Shown: one piece after another, positions 1 to 10,321 of the stretch
Layout: the number at the start of each line of letters is the position of its first letter
How positions within the stretch are numbered: the first letter of the stretch is position 1
Source: Actinomycetota bacterium
GTDB taxonomy: Bacteria > Actinomycetota > Actinomycetes > Nanopelagicales > Nanopelagicaceae
DNA: 10,321 nucleotides
Direction of reading: 5' to 3'
Assembly: GCA_009702845.1 (NCBI GenBank)
Contig: WLHG01000022.1
Location: 1-10,321, forward strand
The notes under the pieces: model-generated
Databases searched by the model: none
What the model saw: only the letters and a program-made list of their open reading frames with translations
Told to the model about the DNA's origin: nothing
Translations under genes and position numbers: made by a program

Positions 1-987
1 AGCGAGGTTACAGAGTTCGTCAGCGTTATTGTGCCGCTTCGTAATGAGGCTGAAAACATATCTGGGCTTGTGAGCTCATTGCTTTCTCAGAACTCGCTTA
101 CGAATGTTGAGTACTTATTCTTAAATGACAACTCTGAGGATGAGAGCTTTGATCTGCTCACATCGGCTCTATCTCGCCATACAAATGCGAAGGTTATTCA
201 GGGCAGCCCTTTGCCGCCTGGATGGATTGGCAAAACATGGGCGCTTCAACAGCTGCTTGAAGCATCAAGGGGTGAAATAATTGTCTCTATCGATGCCGAT
301 GTTCGACTCTCACCTGATGCCATTAATAAGTCGATTACTTTAATGAAGTCGAGGAGATTGGATTTTCTCTCACCGTATCCCCGGCAAATCACTCATAGTT
401 TGAGTGAGCGGCTCATTCAGCCACTTTTGCAATGGTCCTGGATGTCTACGCTGCTACTTGGCATCGCAGAGAAGGCATCATTTTCATCTATGGCCGTTGC
501 CAATGGCCAGTTCTTTATTGTTCGAAAAAGAGCACTCCTTCTAGTTGGTGGATACGAATCGGTCAAAGCCGATGTGTTAGATGATGTATTTCTGGCGCGG
601 CAACTATTGAAAACAGGTTCTCATGGTGTTGTTGTTAATGGTGCCAGCATCGCCGAATGCCGAATGTATTCATCCTGGAGTGAGATTGAGGCAGGATATG
701 GCAAATCACTTCGTCACGCTTTTGGATCGCCCTTCGGATCACTGTGCGCTATCTTCTTTCTTTTTCTTACAGGAATTGCTCCTATCATTTTTGCCCTGGT
801 GGGTTCAGCCTGGGCCTGGCTCGCTTTTGTACTCATAGTAGCTTCGCGAATGATGAGTGCTAATCGGGCTCGTACAAGAATTATCGATTCACTCTTGCAC
901 CCAATCTCAAGTACATTGCTTATATATCTCATTTTTTACTCATACCTCATGCGTGGAGATATCCAATGGAAGGGTCGTCCGGTATGA
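1..987 (+). CDS. Membrane-associated family 2 glycosyltransferase (CrtQ-like), 5' end outside window
   Basis: This probably transfers a sugar to a lipid or carotenoid acceptor at the cytoplasmic membrane. The frame is open from the first base and reads VSVIVPLRNEAENI, the standard beta-1 strand of GT2 enzymes. The GTG at 31 is therefore an internal valine codon and the true start lies upstream. Further GT2 hallmarks are the PLPPGWIGKTWA segment, the DAD nucleotide-sugar/metal motif at 292-300, and a later VLDDVFLARQL segment resembling the ED-x-LA catalytic region. The C-terminus carries two or three hydrophobic membrane segments (about nt 720-850 and 890-955) and ends WKGRPV, typical of CrtQ/HpnB-like membrane GT2 proteins. 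The stop overlaps the next gene's ATG by 4 bp (ATGA), so the two are translationally coupled. A carotenoid substrate is inferred only from the neighbouring desaturase; a glycolipid role is possible. Confidence 0.85.
   Translation, partial: SEVTEFVSVIVPLRNEAENISGLVSSLLSQNSLTNVEYLFLNDNSEDESFDLLTSALSRHTNAKVIQGSPLPPGWIGKTWALQQLLEASRGEIIVSIDADVRLSPDAINKSITLMKSRRLDFLSPYPRQITHSLSERLIQPLLQWSWMSTLLLGIAEKASFSSMAVANGQFFIVRKRALLLVGGYESVKADVLDDVFLARQLLKTGSHGVVVNGASIAECRMYSSWSEIEAGYGKSLRHAFGSPFGSLCAIFFLFLTGIAPIIFALVGSAWAWLAFVLIVASRMMSANRARTRIIDSLLHPISSTLLIYLIFYSYLMRGDIQWKGRPV
968..974 (+). promoter_or_regulatory. Shine-Dalgarno of the CrtI/CrtD-like gene
   Basis: GGAAGGG lies 9 nt before the ATG at 984, inside the end of the glycosyltransferase gene. 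It decides the start at 984 over the in-frame ATG at 966, which would place the motif inside the coding region. Confidence 0.6.
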
Positions 988-2489
988 AGATTGTTGTCAT
1001 TGGCGCCGGCATGGGTGGCATGACCGCCGCTGCTCGATTAGCTCGAAGTGGTCACTCAGTTACGCTCTTTGAAGCATCCGATACTTACGGTGGCAAGCTT
1101 CGCACCGAATGGATTGGAAAGTTTGCATTCGACACTGGACCATCACTATTGACATTGCCGGCGGTCTATAAAGATTTCTTCATCCGAACTGGTAAGCCAC
1201 TTGGATTACTCTGCGAAATAAAGGCAGTTGATCCCTCCTTTGATTACCGTTTTACCGATGGAACAAATGTAAAGTTCGCCAATCTCTCCCGCCATCACAC
1301 TCTTAACGCCGTTCGTGATACCTATGGCAGCGATGCCGCCGATCAATGGGATCAGATGATGAAACGTGCTACAAAGATGTGGGATGTTTCGCGCGAACCT
1401 TTTGTTGAATCAGAGCTGCGATCACCTCTGGATCTTTTGAAACGTAGAACTTTAATTCGCGATATTTTCACGATCGCGCCTTGGAAATCCCTACGAACAT
1501 TTGCCAATGAGCTTCTGCCCGACCAGCATCTTCGATTTATCCTTGATCGATATGCCACATATAGCGGCTCTGATCCCCGTAAGGCTCCGGCTGTTCTTGC
1601 AACGATCGCCTATGTCGAAGAGGCCTTTGGGGCCTGGCATATCTCTGGCGGACTCGGAACTTTGGCAACGCTCGTTCACCAACGTTCTTTAGATGTCGGT
1701 GTTGAGTTTGAATTCAACTCGCAGGTCGAAGAGATCACCGTTGAAAAGGGCGCTGCCACAGGAGTTCGACTAGCCGATGGACGAGTTGTAATTGCCGATG
1801 CGGTTGTGGCTAACGCCGATGCCTCCCTTATCTATAAGCAACTAATCAAAGGAGAAAAGCGAAAGCTGCGCAGGGTGCGTAAGAATTTAGCGCAGGCTGA
1901 AAAATCTATCGCAGGATTTTCACTTCTTCTAGGGCTGAGAAAGGACGGCGCCTCTACGCTCAATCACCATACAATTCTCTTTCCCGAAAATTACGATGCT
2001 GAGTTCGATGCAATTTTCAGCACTCAACTACCGGTCAAAAAACCAACGATCTATATCTGTGCACCAGATGATCCGCAGATGGTTAAAGGTGAAGGCTTAG
2101 AAAGTTGGTCAGTGCTCGTCAATGCACCGCACCATGGCCCAGACGGCTTTGATTGGAGCGATGAAAGCTTTGCGCGAAGCTATGCCAATAGCATTATCGA
2201 CCAGATTGAAGCGCGCGGGATTCCAGTACGCGATCGCTTAGAGTCTTTAACAATTAGAACCCCAGCGGATTTGGAGCGCACGATGAATGCGCCAGGGGGA
2301 TCTATTTATGGAACTTCTAGTAATGGAGCACGAGCTGCATTTATGAGGGCAAAGAACCGCTCACCAATTAAGAATCTTTACTGTGTGGGAGGATCGGCAC
2401 ATCCAGGTGGTGGTTTACCTCTAGTTGGAATGAGTGGTGAATTAGTTGCTAATGCAATTGGGAACGCGCATAACGCACCACAACGATAA
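984..2489 (+). CDS. CrtI/CrtD-family FAD-dependent carotenoid desaturase (second paralog)
   Basis: A 501-aa amine-oxidase-fold flavoprotein. The N-terminal FAD-binding Rossmann motif GAGMGG is at residues 7-12, followed by the YGGKLRTE and FDTGPSLLTLP segments seen in phytoene desaturases. The C-terminal FAD/substrate region reads GGSAHPGGGLPLVGMSG, a variant of the CrtI signature: Gly replaces the usual small S/T/A/V residue after PG, and Cys precedes the GG. This style is closer to CrtD/CrtN-like desaturases than to CrtI proper. A separate canonical CrtI lies downstream at 5013-6497, so this paralog probably acts later, for example introducing an extra double bond in a modified carotenoid end. 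It is coupled by a 4-bp overlap to the upstream glycosyltransferase. Its 3' end overlaps the convergent phosphatidyltransferase by 41 bp. The family call is firm; the exact substrate cannot be read from sequence. Confidence 0.85.
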   Translation: MKIVVIGAGMGGMTAAARLARSGHSVTLFEASDTYGGKLRTEWIGKFAFDTGPSLLTLPAVYKDFFIRTGKPLGLLCEIKAVDPSFDYRFTDGTNVKFANLSRHHTLNAVRDTYGSDAADQWDQMMKRATKMWDVSREPFVESELRSPLDLLKRRTLIRDIFTIAPWKSLRTFANELLPDQHLRFILDRYATYSGSDPRKAPAVLATIAYVEEAFGAWHISGGLGTLATLVHQRSLDVGVEFEFNSQVEEITVEKGAATGVRLADGRVVIADAVVANADASLIYKQLIKGEKRKLRRVRKNLAQAEKSIAGFSLLLGLRKDGASTLNHHTILFPENYDAEFDAIFSTQLPVKKPTIYICAPDDPQMVKGEGLESWSVLVNAPHHGPDGFDWSDESFARSYANSIIDQIEARGIPVRDRLESLTIRTPADLERTMNAPGGSIYGTSSNGARAAFMRAKNRSPIKNLYCVGGSAHPGGGLPLVGMSGELVANAIGNAHNAPQR

Positions 2490-3069
2490 AACTAACTATT
2501 TGTAGCAACAGAAATCCATATGATAAAAGTACGACACCCGATAGTTCAAGCTGGTTCATGATGAGAACTACGAAAAGAAAGCTCGCGCGCACAGGTCGCT
2601 CAGCCGGAGTTACAACACCGATATCGCGAACACCCAATGAGCTTAACTTGGCTCGCGCATACTCTTGGAATGCAGCGATGCTCCATAGAGCAATGGCAAG
2701 CCAAGCAGGAATCCCAATGACATAAAGGGCATACAGCCAAAAAGCTTCGCTGATTCGATCGACAACAGAGTCGAGAGTTGCTCCCCATGCGCTCTCACGC
2801 TTTTGAAATATCGCAACGCTGCCATCGATTCCATCGCAAAAGAGTGAAAATACAAGAAAAAGAACTGCCCACCATGAAGTTGCTGTGATCGCTGTCATCG
2901 CCGCGCTCAGAAGCCCAAGAAGTGTTAAAACATTTGGGGAGATACGAAGCAGTGTGGCGATCAAACCAAAGCGATAGGAGATATTGAGCCACCAAGCAAC
3001 TGCGCCTTTTATCGGCGCATCACTATGCAAGGTACTCCACTTTGCGTTGAAGGCCTCTTTAGTGAGCAT
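2449..3069 (-). CDS. CDP-alcohol phosphatidyltransferase family membrane protein
   Basis: A 206-aa integral membrane enzyme expected to exchange CMP on a CDP-linked lipid for an alcohol, forming a phospholipid or related ether lipid. The CDP-OH-P motif is visible at residues 79-104: D79, D82-G83, A86, G96, D100 and D104. All four metal-binding aspartates are present, but the Arg that normally follows the Ala is Ile87. Around it are five or six hydrophobic segments and the RISPNVLTLLGLL entry helix typical of the family. The ATG at 3069 lies inside the metF end (11-bp overlap), with an AGGA Shine-Dalgarno 8 nt upstream, so it is coupled to metF. The specific alcohol (inositol phosphate, glycerol phosphate or other) is unknown. 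The stop lies 41 bp inside the convergent desaturase gene, leaving no room for a terminator between them. Confidence 0.83.
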   Translation of the reverse strand: MLTKEAFNAKWSTLHSDAPIKGAVAWWLNISYRFGLIATLLRISPNVLTLLGLLSAAMTAITATSWWAVLFLVFSLFCDGIDGSVAIFQKRESAWGATLDSVVDRISEAFWLYALYVIGIPAWLAIALWSIAAFQEYARAKLSSLGVRDIGVVTPAERPVRASFLFVVLIMNQLELSGVVLLSYGFLLLQIVSFIVVVRYARSQLH

Positions 3070-3913
3070 TGTTTAGATTCCTATAGATCTCTTTGGTGGC
3101 AGTTGCACTATTCATAGTATAGAAGTGAAGGCTGGGTGCGCCAGCTCGGAGCAAATCTTCGCACAATGTACTCGCTAGCTCGATGCCCAAGGCGTGAACA
3201 GCATCTACGTCATCTTCAACCGCAGAAAAAGCGCTCGAAACTGCCGGTGGAATATCTGTTCCCCCGAGTTCGGCCATGCGCTGTAGCTGCTTGACGTTAG
3301 TAATGGGAAGGATTCCCGGAATTATCGGCATTGTTGAGCCGCGCGCCTGAAGTGCATAGACAAGTTGTTCCCATTTAGATACATCAAAGAAAAATTGTGT
3401 CGTGGCAAAAGTTGCACCTAAATGCTCTTTACGTAATAAGACATCGATATCTTTTTTAGCATCGCCATTTGATGATGGATGTCCATCTGGAAATGCTGCC
3501 ACTCCAATATCAAAGCCACCGAACTCGTGAATGAGTTGGACCAACTCATCGGCATGAGTGAAGCCATCGGGCATTGGAGTCCACGGTGCACGGGGACCTC
3601 CAACTGGATCACCGCGTAGTGCCAACACTCCTCTAATTCCGGCGGCACGGTACATGTGCAGAATTGAAATTATCTCTTGTCGACTTGAACCCACGCATGT
3701 CAGGTGAGCAACAGTTGGAATCTTTGTGCGTTGCCTCACCTCTTCGGTTACGCCAATGGTTCGATTTCTAGTTGAGCCTCCAGCGCCATAAGTCACAGAA
3801 ATAAACTCAGGTGCTATGAATTCAAGGGCCTCGAGGGCGGCCCACAATCGAGCCTCCCCCTCCTCGTCTTTCGGGGGGAAGAATTCCAATGAATACGAAG
3901 TGCGGACTACCAC
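3059..3913 (-). CDS. metF: 5,10-methylenetetrahydrofolate reductase
   Basis: MetF reduces 5,10-methylene-THF to 5-methyl-THF with a flavin cofactor, supplying methyl groups for methionine synthesis in the cytosol. The 284-aa product matches the usual bacterial single-domain TIM-barrel length. Seen in sequence: LEFFPPK at the N-terminus with the catalytic Glu at residue 10, SVTYGAGGSTRNRT, VLALRGDP with the flavin-contacting Asp at 102, and ATTQFFFD with the substrate Gln at 173. The start is GTG at 3913. No Shine-Dalgarno precedes it, but a TACCCT -10 hexamer ends exactly 6 nt upstream, so a leaderless mRNA is inferred. It heads an operon with the overlapping phosphatidyltransferase and is divergent from crtE with only 22 bp between. 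In mycobacteria a MetF-like gene also sits beside an idsA-type prenyl synthase, so this pairing looks ancestral. Confidence 0.93.
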   Translation of the reverse strand: MVVRTSYSLEFFPPKDEEGEARLWAALEALEFIAPEFISVTYGAGGSTRNRTIGVTEEVRQRTKIPTVAHLTCVGSSRQEIISILHMYRAAGIRGVLALRGDPVGGPRAPWTPMPDGFTHADELVQLIHEFGGFDIGVAAFPDGHPSSNGDAKKDIDVLLRKEHLGATFATTQFFFDVSKWEQLVYALQARGSTMPIIPGILPITNVKQLQRMAELGGTDIPPAVSSAFSAVEDDVDAVHALGIELASTLCEDLLRAGAPSLHFYTMNSATATKEIYRNLNNAH

Positions 3914-3919
3914 TGAGTG

Positions 3920-3925
3920 AGGGTA
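3920..3925 (-). promoter_or_regulatory. Predicted -10 box for metF (leaderless)
   Basis: On the minus strand TACCCT fits TANNNT and ends 6 nt before the metF GTG at 3913, so the predicted start site is the G of that codon. I see no good -35. It shares the TA step at 3924-3925 with the crtE -10 box on the other strand. Confidence 0.5.
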
Positions 3926-3929
3926 CCGT
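3924..3929 (+). promoter_or_regulatory. Predicted -10 box for crtE-crtI-crtB (leaderless)
   Basis: TACCGT fits TANNNT and ends 6 nt before the crtE GTG at 3936, so the predicted transcript starts at the start codon. It sits in a GGTACC palindrome (3922-3927) centred on the TA shared with the opposing metF -10. The -35 region, inside metF codons, is weak. Confidence 0.5.
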
Positions 3930-3935
3930 TAAGGA

Positions 3936-5012
3936 GTGAGTACTGAGGCCAAGGCAACGTTGCAAGAGATTCGTGATGCCGTAGAGATAGAGCTATCAGC
4001 TTTTCTGACAGAGCAGGCCGATTATCTGCACTCCATATCGAGCCAACTTGCACCGGTCTCTATGGCTCTGTCTTCATTTCTTCTCGATAGCGGAAAGCGC
4101 CTGCGCCCACTATTTGCCTACAGCGGATACGTCAGCGTTAGCGACGAAATATCAACCGCTGAAATAAAGTCGATCGCCAGTCTGGAACTTCTGCAGGCCT
4201 GCGCCCTCATTCACGATGACCTCATGGATGGGTCAGATACTCGTCGAGGCAAACCCTCAATACATCGTCACTTCGAATCTATGCATGTACAGGATGAACT
4301 AGAGGGTTTTGCACCCGCTTACGGACTGGCCGCAGCTGTTTTATTAGGCGACTTAGCCCTTGTATGGTCGAGTCAAATGCTTAACGCATCAGGGCTTACA
4401 TCGGCGCAACTCCGAGATGTCTTACCGATTCATGATGAGATGCGTGTTGAACTAATGGCTGGGCAGTTCTTGGATATACATGAGCAAACTCAGAAGTCGA
4501 CAGACCTACAGCGCTCAATGAAAATAGCGCGCTACAAATCAGGTAAATACACAATAGAGCGACCACTTCATATTGGTGCATCACTGACAGGTCGCCAAAC
4601 TCCCGAACTATTAGCCGCTCTATCTGCCTATGGTCTGCCATTGGGTGAGGCCTTTCAGTATCGCGATGATTTACTCGGAGTATTCGGTGATCCATTCGTG
4701 ACTGGGAAACCAGCAGGTGATGATTTGCGCGAAGGTAAGCGAACTGTTTTGATCGCACTGACTGAATTAGAATCTACAGATTCGATGCGTGCTGAGAGCA
4801 AAAAATTCTTTGGATCATCAGATTTGGATGCACATGGTGTCTCTGTATTGCAGGAGATCATCACCGCAACCGGTGCCAAAGACAAGCTCGAAGCTATGAT
4901 CGCTCGCCTGACTGATGAGGCCTTGCGCGCGGCAGAGAGTGAACTCATAGGAGAAAAGGCGCATCCTTTGCTTCTTGAGCTTGCCAAAATTGCAACAAAG
5001 AGAAATAACTAG
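3936..5012 (+). CDS. crtE: Geranylgeranyl diphosphate synthase (short-chain trans-prenyl synthase)
   Basis: CrtE elongates allylic diphosphates with IPP to C20 GGPP, the phytoene precursor. The 358-aa protein shows GKRLRPLF (residues 53-60), the first Asp-rich motif DDLMD at 94-98 followed by DTRRG, and the second motif RDDLLGVFGDP at 243-252 followed by GKPAGDDLREGKRT. The second motif has Gly where the third Asp would be (DDLLG), as is usual in actinobacterial IdsA/CrtE proteins. The start is GTG at 3936. An in-frame TAA at 3930 bars anything further upstream, and AAGGA directly touches the GTG, too close to act as its Shine-Dalgarno, so a leaderless start is favoured. It is the first gene of a crtE-crtI-crtB operon; its TAG abuts the crtI ATG. 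Chain length (GGPP versus FPP) is inferred from crtB downstream, not proven by the sequence. Confidence 0.92.
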   Translation: MSTEAKATLQEIRDAVEIELSAFLTEQADYLHSISSQLAPVSMALSSFLLDSGKRLRPLFAYSGYVSVSDEISTAEIKSIASLELLQACALIHDDLMDGSDTRRGKPSIHRHFESMHVQDELEGFAPAYGLAAAVLLGDLALVWSSQMLNASGLTSAQLRDVLPIHDEMRVELMAGQFLDIHEQTQKSTDLQRSMKIARYKSGKYTIERPLHIGASLTGRQTPELLAALSAYGLPLGEAFQYRDDLLGVFGDPFVTGKPAGDDLREGKRTVLIALTELESTDSMRAESKKFFGSSDLDAHGVSVLQEIITATGAKDKLEAMIARLTDEALRAAESELIGEKAHPLLLELAKIATKRNN

Positions 5013-7961: not shown

Positions 7962-7967
7962 ACGCTA
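7962..7967 (-). promoter_or_regulatory. Predicted -10 box for crtYc-crtYd (leaderless)
   Basis: On the minus strand TAGCGT fits TANNNT and ends 6 nt before the crtYc GTG at 7955, putting the start site at the codon itself. It shares the TA at 7966-7967 with the opposing TACTCT. No convincing -35 is visible. Confidence 0.5.
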
Positions 7968-7971
7968 CTCT
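7966..7971 (+). promoter_or_regulatory. Predicted -10 box for the TPP riboswitch operon
   Basis: TACTCT fits TANNNT. With the same 6-nt spacing seen at neighbouring promoters, transcription would begin at 7978-7979, directly at the first paired bases of the TPP aptamer. It shares its TA step with the crtYc -10 on the other strand. Confidence 0.45.
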
Positions 7972-7978
7972 ACGAACT

Positions 7979-8058
7979 ACGGGAGCCGACAGAGGCTGAG
8001 AGGGTCTGAGATTCAGACCGACCGTTTGACCAATCCGGTAATGCGGATCTGGAAGGGA
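7979..8058 (+). ncRNA. TPP riboswitch (THI element) controlling the PnuT-like transporter
   Basis: A thiamine pyrophosphate-sensing aptamer in the leader of the transporter gene. Conserved parts are in order: GGCTGAGA at 7994-8001, CCGTTTGACC at 8022-8031, GGTAATG at 8037-8043, and the 3' AGGGA at 8054-8058. Supporting helices are P2 ACGG (7979-7982) with CCGT (8022-8025); P3 GCC (7985-7987) with GGC (7994-7996); a variable stem GGTCTGA/TCAGACC (8003-8009 with 8013-8019, 3-nt loop); P4 CCA (8030-8032) with TGG (8050-8052); and P5 ATCCG (8033-8037) with CGGAT (8044-8048). I see no clear P1. The 3' conserved segment contains the Shine-Dalgarno GGAAGGGA, so ligand binding should directly hide the ribosome site. 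Family consensus knowledge is from Rfam-type TPP elements; no covariance search was run. Confidence 0.88.
8051..8057 (+). promoter_or_regulatory. Shine-Dalgarno of the transporter, inside the aptamer
   Basis: GGAAGGG lies 9 nt before the ATG at 8067. Its first bases form P4 and its last bases are the conserved 3' AGGGA of the TPP aptamer. The spacing supports ATG 8067 over the in-frame TTG at 8064. Confidence 0.65.
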
Positions 8059-8066
8059 ATCATTTG

Positions 8067-8642
8067 ATGTCATCAACTCTCTTTACTGCATGGGGCTACG
8101 ACGTTTCTATATTGGAATTTGTTTCGGTGATAGCTTCATTTATTGGAGTCTGGCTTGGTACAACTGGCAAGCGCATCACATGGCCATGGTGGGCCGCTAG
8201 TAGCGCCCTCTATATGATCTTCTTTTATCAAGCAGAGCTCTATGCAAGTGCCGCACTACAAATTGTTTTTATTGTGGCCGCAGTTTGGGGTTGGCGTGAC
8301 TGGGCGCCGACAGGGGCGGCACCTGGTGCCTTGTCTCATCGCAATCGAGCGATGTGGGCGGGCGCAACACTGGTTTCAGTATCCTTACTGACGCCAGTTC
8401 TATCTCATCTAGGTGCTGCGGCAACATGGTCTGATGCATTTCTACTCGTTGCAAGTTTAATTGCGCAGATACTGATGGTCTACGAGAAGATCGAATCGTG
8501 GGTTTTGTGGTTCATAGTAGATGCAGTGGGGACAATCCAATATGCCGTGCTTGGCTACTGGTTCACCGCAGTTTTGTACTTGGCATTTACATTGATTGCT
8601 GTAATTGGATGGAAGCGATGGAATGACTCTTATAGCCATTGA
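8067..8642 (+). CDS. PnuC-family transporter, probable thiamine transporter (PnuT-like)
   Basis: A 191-aa membrane protein with seven hydrophobic segments, the size and topology of the PnuC (SWEET-like) vitamin transporter family. The family core WPWWAASSALYMIFFYQAEL followed by YASAALQIVFIVAAVWGW (about residues 33-70) is recognisable, and the C-terminal IDxx/WFxxAVLYLAF-to-IGWKRW region fits. Homologs are usually annotated as nicotinamide mononucleotide or riboside transporters. Here the TPP riboswitch immediately upstream points instead to thiamine, as for the PnuT subgroup known to lie behind THI elements. PnuC-type carriers work by facilitated diffusion and rely on phosphorylation to trap their substrate, which makes the overlapping downstream kinase notable. 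The ATG at 8067 has an ideal Shine-Dalgarno; the last 20 bp overlap the kinase gene. Substrate is inferred from regulation, not from binding residues. Confidence 0.85.
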   Translation: MSSTLFTAWGYDVSILEFVSVIASFIGVWLGTTGKRITWPWWAASSALYMIFFYQAELYASAALQIVFIVAAVWGWRDWAPTGAAPGALSHRNRAMWAGATLVSVSLLTPVLSHLGAAATWSDAFLLVASLIAQILMVYEKIESWVLWFIVDAVGTIQYAVLGYWFTAVLYLAFTLIAVIGWKRWNDSYSH

Positions 8643-9114
8643 TGGTCCGGCCGGTGCTGGTAAAACAACTCTGGCAGCCCAGTTTTTCGATGAGTATTCA
8701 TCCACTAAAACCGTCGCACTCATTCACATGGATGATTTATATGCCGGTTGGGAAAACGCTCTTGATCATCGATTAACATCCAGACTCGCCGACATAATTG
8801 AGGCCTTTGCCGCTCACAGCCGATTCTCATTCCCAACCTTTAATTGGGCAACGATGCGCTTTGATCTCTCCCAAACTATCGATCCCAGTGATATTTTAAT
8901 TATTGAGGGAGTTGGGGCAGGCCAACAAGTAGTCCGCGACGCGGGCGCTAACATCTATTGGCTCGATATCGAAGCTGAGGTTGGCTTGGCTCGAGTTTTA
9001 CAACGTGATGGATATGAAATTGAAAGCCAGATGCGCCAATGGCAACTCGATCAAGATGCACACTTTCTGCGTGATCAAACTCGCGCCAATGCCAACCATA
9101 TTCTTACTTCGTAG
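8623..9114 (+). CDS. Small P-loop kinase (uridine-kinase-like), candidate thiamine-salvage kinase
   Basis: A 163-aa soluble P-loop NTPase. The Walker A motif GPAGAGKT is at residues 8-15; HMDDLYAGW follows, in the position of the nucleoside-kinase DxxY/substrate segment; a Walker-B-like strand DILIIEGVGAG follows in the middle of the protein; and an arginine-bearing C-terminal lid (RVLQRDGYE, RQWQLDQDAHFL) closes it. Such proteins are commonly annotated as uridine kinase-like in actinobacteria, without a proven substrate. The ATG at 8623 has GGAAG 7 nt upstream and overlaps the transporter gene by 20 bp, so both are expressed together under the TPP riboswitch. An in-frame TTG at 8605 exists but would put the Shine-Dalgarno inside the gene. 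I infer a role in phosphorylating imported thiamine or a thiamine precursor; a pyrimidine nucleoside substrate remains possible. Confidence 0.83.
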   Translation: MTLIAIDGPAGAGKTTLAAQFFDEYSSTKTVALIHMDDLYAGWENALDHRLTSRLADIIEAFAAHSRFSFPTFNWATMRFDLSQTIDPSDILIIEGVGAGQQVVRDAGANIYWLDIEAEVGLARVLQRDGYEIESQMRQWQLDQDAHFLRDQTRANANHILTS

Positions 9115-9171: not shown

Positions 9172-10321
9172 ATGTCAGATCTATCCGGTGAACTCATTGA
9201 TAACCGCTATCAATTAATTCGCCAGGTTGCCAATGGTGGAATGGCCTCGATTTATGAGGCGATCGATACGCGCCTAGATCGCAAAGTTGCAGTGAAAATC
9301 ATGCACCCTCATTTAGCCCAAGATGATGCCTTTGTTAGTCGCTTCATACGTGAGGCAAAGGCTGCCGCAGCCCTCTCCCATCCCAATATTGTTGCCGTTC
9401 AAGATCAAGGTTGGAATCAAAATGGCGTGCCAGCAGTCTTCTTAGTCATGGAGCTAATTGAGGGAGATACGCTGCGTGAATACCTGAATGAGCGCGGTCG
9501 ATTTGAAATCAAAGATGCTCTTAATTTTCTTGCACCAATTTTGAGTGCGCTTTCTGCCGCACACTCTCTCGGAATCGTTCATCGAGATGTTAAGCCAGAG
9601 AATATTTTGATCTCGAAAGAAGGCCGCATTAAGATCGCTGACTTTGGCTTGGCTCGCGGCGAGTTAATCGGTTCAACAATGACAGCTGAGTCAAGTGTCA
9701 TCTTGGGCTCGGTTTCATATCTATCTCCTGAACAGGTTCAGCGCGGTGTGGCCGATGCACGAAGTGATGTTTATGCAGTTGGAATCGTTGCATTTGAAAT
9801 GCTCACTGGTGAAAAACCATTCATCGGGGATACTCCAATTCAGATTGCCTATATGCATGTTAATCAAGATATTCCATCACTGCGCTCCAAACGCAAGGAA
9901 ATCCCCCAGGCTCTAGATGATCTCATTGGTCGAGCAACAAATAGAGATCCAGATAAGCGCCCTCGTAATGCCGGTGAGTTTCTTAGCGCAATTGAAGTCA
10001 TTCAAGGTGAGTTGGATCCGAAAAAGAATCAGTTGAAATTAGAACTGGATTTACCCGTTGAGCCTATTCGCGAGAAATCACGAACAAAGCAAAAACCGAT
10101 TATTGCACCCGAGCCGAGCATTGAAGTAAAAGAGACAACTAAAGAGATTCGTCGAAAAGATGAGAAAAAGAGGCGCACCAGTAAAAGAGTTCGGCGAAAC
10201 CGCAAAGTTGCCCTTGCCCTTGCTATCACTTTAGGAATCGGAGGTTGGTACACACTCGTGGGTCCCGGCTCACGAATCGTTGTTCCCTCAACTGTCGGTG
10301 GCTCTTATGATGAAGCTCTTA
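9172..10321 (+). CDS. PASTA-type serine/threonine protein kinase (PknB/PknL class), 3' end outside window
   Basis: A transmembrane Hanks-type kinase of the kind that senses cell-wall muropeptides or lipid II and controls growth and division. The 383 codons present read through to the window edge. The cytoplasmic kinase domain (about residues 13-275) has glycine loop ANGGMASIYEA at 20-30, ATP-binding Lys42 in VAVKIM, helix-C Glu61, catalytic HRDVKPEN at 137-144, DFGLAR at 157-162, and SYLSPEQ then ARSDVYAVG after the activation loop. A charged, Lys/Arg-rich juxtamembrane linker follows, then one membrane helix at about 346-363. The extracellular part begins GPGSRIVVPSTVGGSYDEAL, the start of a first PASTA repeat. 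The ATG at 9172 has no Shine-Dalgarno and lies 7 nt after a -10-like box. The GPGSR junction and the metF-prenyl-synthase neighbourhood suggest PknL rather than PknB, but with the remaining repeats unseen this is tentative. Confidence 0.93.
   Translation, partial: MSDLSGELIDNRYQLIRQVANGGMASIYEAIDTRLDRKVAVKIMHPHLAQDDAFVSRFIREAKAAAALSHPNIVAVQDQGWNQNGVPAVFLVMELIEGDTLREYLNERGRFEIKDALNFLAPILSALSAAHSLGIVHRDVKPENILISKEGRIKIADFGLARGELIGSTMTAESSVILGSVSYLSPEQVQRGVADARSDVYAVGIVAFEMLTGEKPFIGDTPIQIAYMHVNQDIPSLRSKRKEIPQALDDLIGRATNRDPDKRPRNAGEFLSAIEVIQGELDPKKNQLKLELDLPVEPIREKSRTKQKPIIAPEPSIEVKETTKEIRRKDEKKRRTSKRVRRNRKVALALAITLGIGGWYTLVGPGSRIVVPSTVGGSYDEAL

Follow-up and report, generated by a model that had tools for sequence, protein, structure and literature searches.

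The window analysed here, a contig of 10,321 nucleotides (GenBank assembly GCA_009702845.1, WLHG01000022.1) whose nearest relatives are Nanopelagicales (acI-type), carries a thiamine pyrophosphate (TPP) riboswitch, the PnuC-family carrier gene pnuT and an overlapping gene for a P-loop kinase. Genomic context makes this kinase a candidate thiamine kinase that forms thiamine monophosphate (TMP) and is non-homologous to the known ones, a reading to which we assign a probability of roughly 0.7. Salvage of vitamin B1 depends on a kinase, and searches for the known ones found no full-length thiamine pyrophosphokinase (TPK) in 101 genomes of the order and 246 of the class, and no curated ThiK in the order. 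If the reading is true, a single gene would close the gap between thiamine and TMP in abundant freshwater bacteria, and also in many actinobacteria whose copies are labelled 'uridine kinase' or 'hypothetical'.

Riboswitch, carrier and kinase

The locus comprises the following features:
7966-7971, + strand: predicted -10 box, TACTCT in GCTACTCT, of the TAnnnT type, 9 nt 5' of the aptamer GGGAG (putative promoter)
7969-8072, + strand: TPP riboswitch aptamer (RF00059), core at about 7979-8058; 32.8 bits against a gathering score of 54.3, with covarying pairs in 20 aligned copies
8051-8058, + strand: Shine-Dalgarno-like GGAAGGGA, read from the sequence, coinciding with the aptamer 3' end, 8 nt upstream of the ATG
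8067-8642, + strand: pnuT, PnuC-family carrier of 191 aa, probable thiamine facilitator (PF04973; TPP element upstream)
8623-9114, + strand: P-loop kinase of the PRK/uridine-kinase superfamily, PRK06547-related, 163 residues; candidate thiamine kinase

A search of the whole window at the Rfam gathering score gave no RF00059 match, and the element, which was detected in a search of 351 bases (E 7.9e-5), stays below that score. The near-complete aptamer described in an earlier note on this DNA was nevertheless borne out, as the full model (positions 1-105) is covered and the element is conserved among relatives. A leader pattern drawn from 15 Nanopelagicales pnuT-kinase loci, all with the same leader kind by eye, recurs in 44 of 46 pnuT-kinase or kinase loci (36 distinct copies), and the 20 aligned copies adopt a common fold in which 10 of 21 pairs show compensatory changes on both strands of the helix, so the window element is unlikely to be a chance match. 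The CUGAGA core is conserved in these 20 sequences, and their helices, P1 excepted, covary. In 36/36 distinct elements the TAnnnT box has its last base 8-12 nt 5' of GGGAG (9 nt in 28 of them), and the 3' end of the aptamer doubles as the Shine-Dalgarno sequence. The P1 closing helix was not detected: the longest P1-like helix averaged 2.97 in the 36 elements versus 3.02 in shuffles, and likewise 3.21 versus 3.25 in 19 comparison actinobacterial elements (21 taken, two without a usable anchor). The idea of a P1-less riboswitch peculiar to acI was dropped because the other actinobacterial elements examined look alike. Throughout the actinobacterial TPP elements (window 7966-7981; L126-L136, L057-L080, L170-L232), including those over the cut-off, TAnnnT mostly lies 8-14 nt before GGGAG and P1 is not detectable, as if the transcript started with the aptamer's P2 strand.

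The carrier belongs to the PnuC family, as the earlier note had it (PF04973, 131 bits against a cut-off of 27.3), and its profile matches the solved PnuC structure 4qtn. It contains W-x-x-W-x-x-x-D, whose Asp, a residue we presume to be meaningful, is Asn in L009, L012 and L014. Judging from the riboswitch, it very probably imports thiamine, and its designation as PnuT in acI bacteria is already in print: PMC5301498 describes, in acI strains, a PnuC-like gene proposed as PnuT with a THI element ahead of it, and calls its four strains, with PnuT and the THI element, thiamine auxotrophs. The locus reported there shares both elements with ours, and no kinase is mentioned in the parts of that paper dealing with them. 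Many Nanopelagicales (e.g. G031:C1, G041:C1, G047:C44) encode another PnuC-family protein at a distance from the kinase; it often has the higher PF04973 score and may transport riboflavin or nicotinamide riboside.

The kinase gene runs from an ATG at 8623 to a stop at 9114 and overlaps the carrier gene, whose stop codon ends at 8642, by the 20 bp noted earlier. A PF00485 domain (32.1 bits, cut-off 22) and the fold place the protein in the PRK/uridine kinase superfamily. Its best NCBIfam match is PRK06547 (NF005115), named 'hypothetical protein' (E 4.7e-26), a homologous family with motifs shared among relatives whose curated score the window kinase does not reach (91.2 versus 173 bits). As for the uridine-cytidine kinases, it scores far under the udk cut-offs (TIGR00235, 39 versus 220 bits; PRK05480, 42 versus 180 bits). 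Neither the TPK catalytic domain PF04263 nor ThiK (TIGR02721) occurs among its Pfam and NCBIfam matches, in agreement with the earlier view that it is not a recognisable ThiN or ThiK. Kinases of all contexts have D37, Y40, W43, W75 and E95 in common, and in three genomes without pnuT (L119, L120, L123) MDEMYEGW, LDEVYAGW and MDEIYEGW replace MDDLYAGW. A search of viral contigs returned no relative, and the titles and abstract openings listed in literature searches, with most subscription journals outside their coverage, describe no thiamine kinase of the PRK06547-type P-loop family.

The arrangement resembles PnuC-NadR, where a facilitator and a P-loop kinase trap nicotinamide riboside by the same logic, but the window pair is TPP-controlled, would handle another substrate and has a kinase from another P-loop family. 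The activity proposed here, thiamine to TMP, is that of ThiK (YcfN, TIGR02721), an APH-type family to which the window kinase has no match. PnuT carriers act by facilitated diffusion. At low TPP the leader might leave the Shine-Dalgarno sequence at the aptamer 3' end free, PnuT would then admit thiamine, and the overlapping kinase could use ATP to convert it to TMP, which would be unable to leave. ThiL, encoded elsewhere, would phosphorylate TMP a second time, and the resulting TPP would shut the switch.

Thiamine genes and gene order in Nanopelagicales

Across 101 Nanopelagicales genomes (minimum completeness 85), the kinase was strongly detected (E<1e-40) in 99 and a PnuC-family gene in 95, while TPK was absent from all 101, ThiK exceeded its cut-off in none, ThiE did so in four (plus eight weak matches) and ThiL in 91. 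The earlier note had proposed checking whether thiN and thiE are absent; in the order TPK is, and ThiE nearly so. In genomes lacking both ThiE and TPK, the sources left for TMP are a thiamine kinase and import. ThiL converts TMP to TPP, and since it is kept while TPK is absent, the step left without an enzyme is the phosphorylation of thiamine to TMP. The source, a freshwater actinobacterium, probably cannot make vitamin B1. The signature given for B1-only auxotrophs in Table 1 of PMC6593275, 'ThiL/ThiN', leaves this same step open for organisms with ThiL. The import-and-trap operon first suggested for this locus gains from its context and narrows to the conversion of thiamine to TMP, whereas the accompanying suggestion that ThiL might be absent did not hold.

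In 93 of the 99 kinase genomes a PnuC gene stands directly upstream of the kinase in the same orientation (G087, whose kinase gene is broken across two contigs, was scored by the part that follows PnuC), and 72 genomes yielded a TPP element ahead of the linked pnuT under a filter that misses weak matches. The initial genome scan of 80 loci had found pnuT directly upstream in 15/15 Nanopelagicales loci and no pnuT match within the fetched flanks of the 65 loci from outside the order. Where the kinase lacks a linked PnuT (six genomes), it is still beside pknL and a TPP element precedes another importer, a ThiB-type ABC system in five (G022, G071, G088, G093, G100; sfuA TIGR01254 over cut-off in all) and a YkoE-type one (PF09819) in G056. 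These elements exceed the Rfam cut-off in G056, G071 and G088 and remain below it in G022 (52.1 bits), G093 (47.9) and G100 (38.5).

Two genes of the window mark the flanks of a presumed ancestral thiamine site:
3059-3913, - strand: metF (methylenetetrahydrofolate reductase), PF02219 297 bits; left flank
9172-10320, + strand: Ser/Thr protein kinase running off the window, PF00069 171 bits; right flank

The right-hand gene is what we take to be pknL-like; the names pknL, Rv2175c, ykoD and ykoC in the gene orders are likewise our presumptive assignments. In other actinobacteria metF lies near thiE and the pknL-like gene adjoins thiG, and 14 of 20 thiE regions from such genomes have thiE, thiO, thiG and pknL clustered with metF or GGPPS. 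The two Nanopelagicales genomes that lack the kinase (G047, G072) carry thiE, thiO and thiG between carotenoid genes and pknL, and a second TPP element before a CytX-like hydroxymethylpyrimidine (HMP) permease (205 and 198 bits, cut-off 310). On the evidence of these two genomes and of the clusters elsewhere, the pnuT-kinase pair occupies the site of thiamine biosynthesis genes, and the riboswitch itself would have been retained during the gene swap. We lean slightly towards a wider proposal, in which PRK06547-type P-loop kinases are the missing actinobacterial thiamine kinase, non-homologous to ThiK and TPK, and a TPP-pnuT-kinase cassette took over the site of thiE and thiOSG in Nanopelagicales, turning a synthesis locus into a TPP-controlled import locus.

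Kinase relatives across the class

In a sample of 246 actinobacterial genomes, 220 of them outside the order, the PRK06547-type kinase (E<=1e-12) was present in 168 and ThiE in 178 (157 over cut-off), and no full-length TPK was found in any. A hidden TPK was considered and rejected: the PF04263 matches in the class, 79 in number, cover part of the domain (positions 5-45 of 113 among the matches listed), and the five that were checked are all SteA. The normal TPK that would have spoken against a thiamine kinase was not found in the genomes of the order or in those sampled from the class. In the 220 outside genomes the kinase accompanies ykoE (68/76 with ykoE versus 74/144 without, p=4e-9; this and the other co-occurrence tests are uncorrected for phylogeny), also among the 43 that lack ThiE (9/9 versus 17/34, p=0.006). 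Corynebacterium glutamicum is one species with matches to both PRK06547 and ykoE.

Gene order supplies independent linkages. Among the 65 outside loci, ykoC directly precedes the kinase in eight from Agrococcus and four from Brevibacterium, with ykoE further upstream in 10 of these 12 and flanks too short in the other two; a TPP element over the gathering score lies before ykoE in 7 of 10 loci searched. Five of 100 further kinase loci from the class repeat the order TPP-ykoE-ykoC-kinase (TPP over gathering in 5/5), giving 17 ykoC-kinase loci overall, with ykoE further up in 15 and two flanks too short. Another of the 100 (L250) has TPP (37.8 bits), pnuT and kinase beside a tRNA, argS and the gene for a TPP-dependent oxoglutarate decarboxylase. 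The last of these (515-4234, - strand; multifunctional, PRK12270, 2005 bits) is separated from the kinase by about 0.8 kb. A pnuT-kinase pair in L015 is followed by unrelated genes on the right, its left flank being outside the contig. On a tree of 187 kinases, built with a fast method and with several weak forks, the linkage label needs at least seven changes and the rows linked to ykoEDC fall in two clades.

A thiamine-type transporter adjoins the kinase in 6 of the 100 further loci and 12 of the 65 in the other outside set; in L210, L238 and L252 the PnuC-like gene, of 27-29% identity, is about 3-5 kb distant, and these three were not counted as linked. Among 18 outside loci named by eye, unlinked relatives recur near infC/rplT-like genes (L018, L021, L041, L047, L055) and near argH-like genes (L016, L022, L031, L068).

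Alternative roles for the kinase

Several observations weigh against a thiamine kinase. If the whole family served this role, its presence might be expected to follow the loss of ThiE, but the test did not bear this out: in the outside genomes kinase and ThiE are unrelated (116 with both, 26 with the kinase only, 61 with ThiE only, 17 with neither; p=0.59), which speaks against the kinase as a simple auxotrophy marker. In the 17 genomes without kinase and ThiE (G115, G129, G131, G146, G158, G161, G193, G225, G233, G249, G256, G280, G288, G295, G302, G322, G328) no full-length TPK was seen, and another route must therefore exist there. Eight ykoE genomes lack the kinase, and in 94 of the 100 outside loci no thiamine transporter adjoins it by the queries used. 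ThiBPQ, moreover, can carry TMP and TPP. Within the order, four of the 99 kinase matches span a stop codon, the kinase is kept in five genomes without PnuC, two of them with ThiE, ThiL does not exceed its cut-off in 10 of the 101, 49 genomes encode weak ThiK-like proteins (best 74 bits against a cut-off of 299), and G047 and G072 may represent one evolutionary event. Close homologues lying mostly away from thiamine genes, in genomes with a complete pathway and a normal TPK, had been named beforehand as grounds for abandoning the idea. Distant homologues are mostly so placed and the close ones are not, and with 93 of 99 of the latter behind PnuC, TPK in 0/101 and ThiE in 4/101 genomes the thiamine-kinase reading is not refuted. 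Those linkages that do occur among the distant homologues bring in further transporters and further sites. The more sweeping claim, that many uridine-kinase-like annotations are wrong, is not supported as yet.

The alternative that survives best, although unlikely, is an unrelated conserved kinase that stands behind pnuT by chance in a syntenic, streamlined region. The whole neighbourhood is indeed conserved, the kinase keeps its place next to pknL where pnuT is missing, relatives from outside the order mostly lie apart from thiamine genes, and presence of the kinase is unlinked to ThiE loss. Points against a chance neighbour are TPP-pnuT-kinase between quite different genes in L250, the other right-hand genes of L015, members of the kinase family behind ykoEDC in two further clades of the tree, the co-occurrence of the kinase with ykoE, and its absence from the two genomes in which no thiamine importer was found (G047, G072). 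Synteny alone was rejected as a sufficient cause of the linkage, given the pair in the L250 neighbourhood and the family behind ykoEDC elsewhere.

It is distinctly less probable that the substrate is not thiamine but a different B1-related vitamer or a breakdown product (HMP, hydroxyethylthiazole, oxidised thiamine). In Table 1 of PMC6593275 YkoEDC is entered under HMP, the B1 entry being 'YkoEDC2' alone, so the ykoEDC-kinase linkage may concern HMP, which is a further point against thiamine as the substrate; a table in PMC7397307 gives YkoEDC as an HMP/thiamine permease, and G022 keeps thiC, thiM, thiE and thiD. However, phosphorylated halves could not be joined without ThiE, which is not over the cut-off in 97 of 101 genomes, HMP and thiazole are already served by ThiD and ThiM, and nine ykoE genomes, including the ykoEDC-kinase genome G273, have the kinase but no ThiE. 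Marginally less probable again is a P-loop thiamine pyrophosphokinase that replaces ThiN and makes TPP in one step; it would fit the absence of TPK and the ten genomes of the order with no ThiL over the cut-off. A nicotinamide riboside module, PnuC with a NadR/NRK-like kinase, is the least probable of all, given the TPP element upstream, the linkage of the kinase family to TPP-controlled ykoEDC elsewhere and the better match of the kinase to uridine kinases and PRK than to NRK1.
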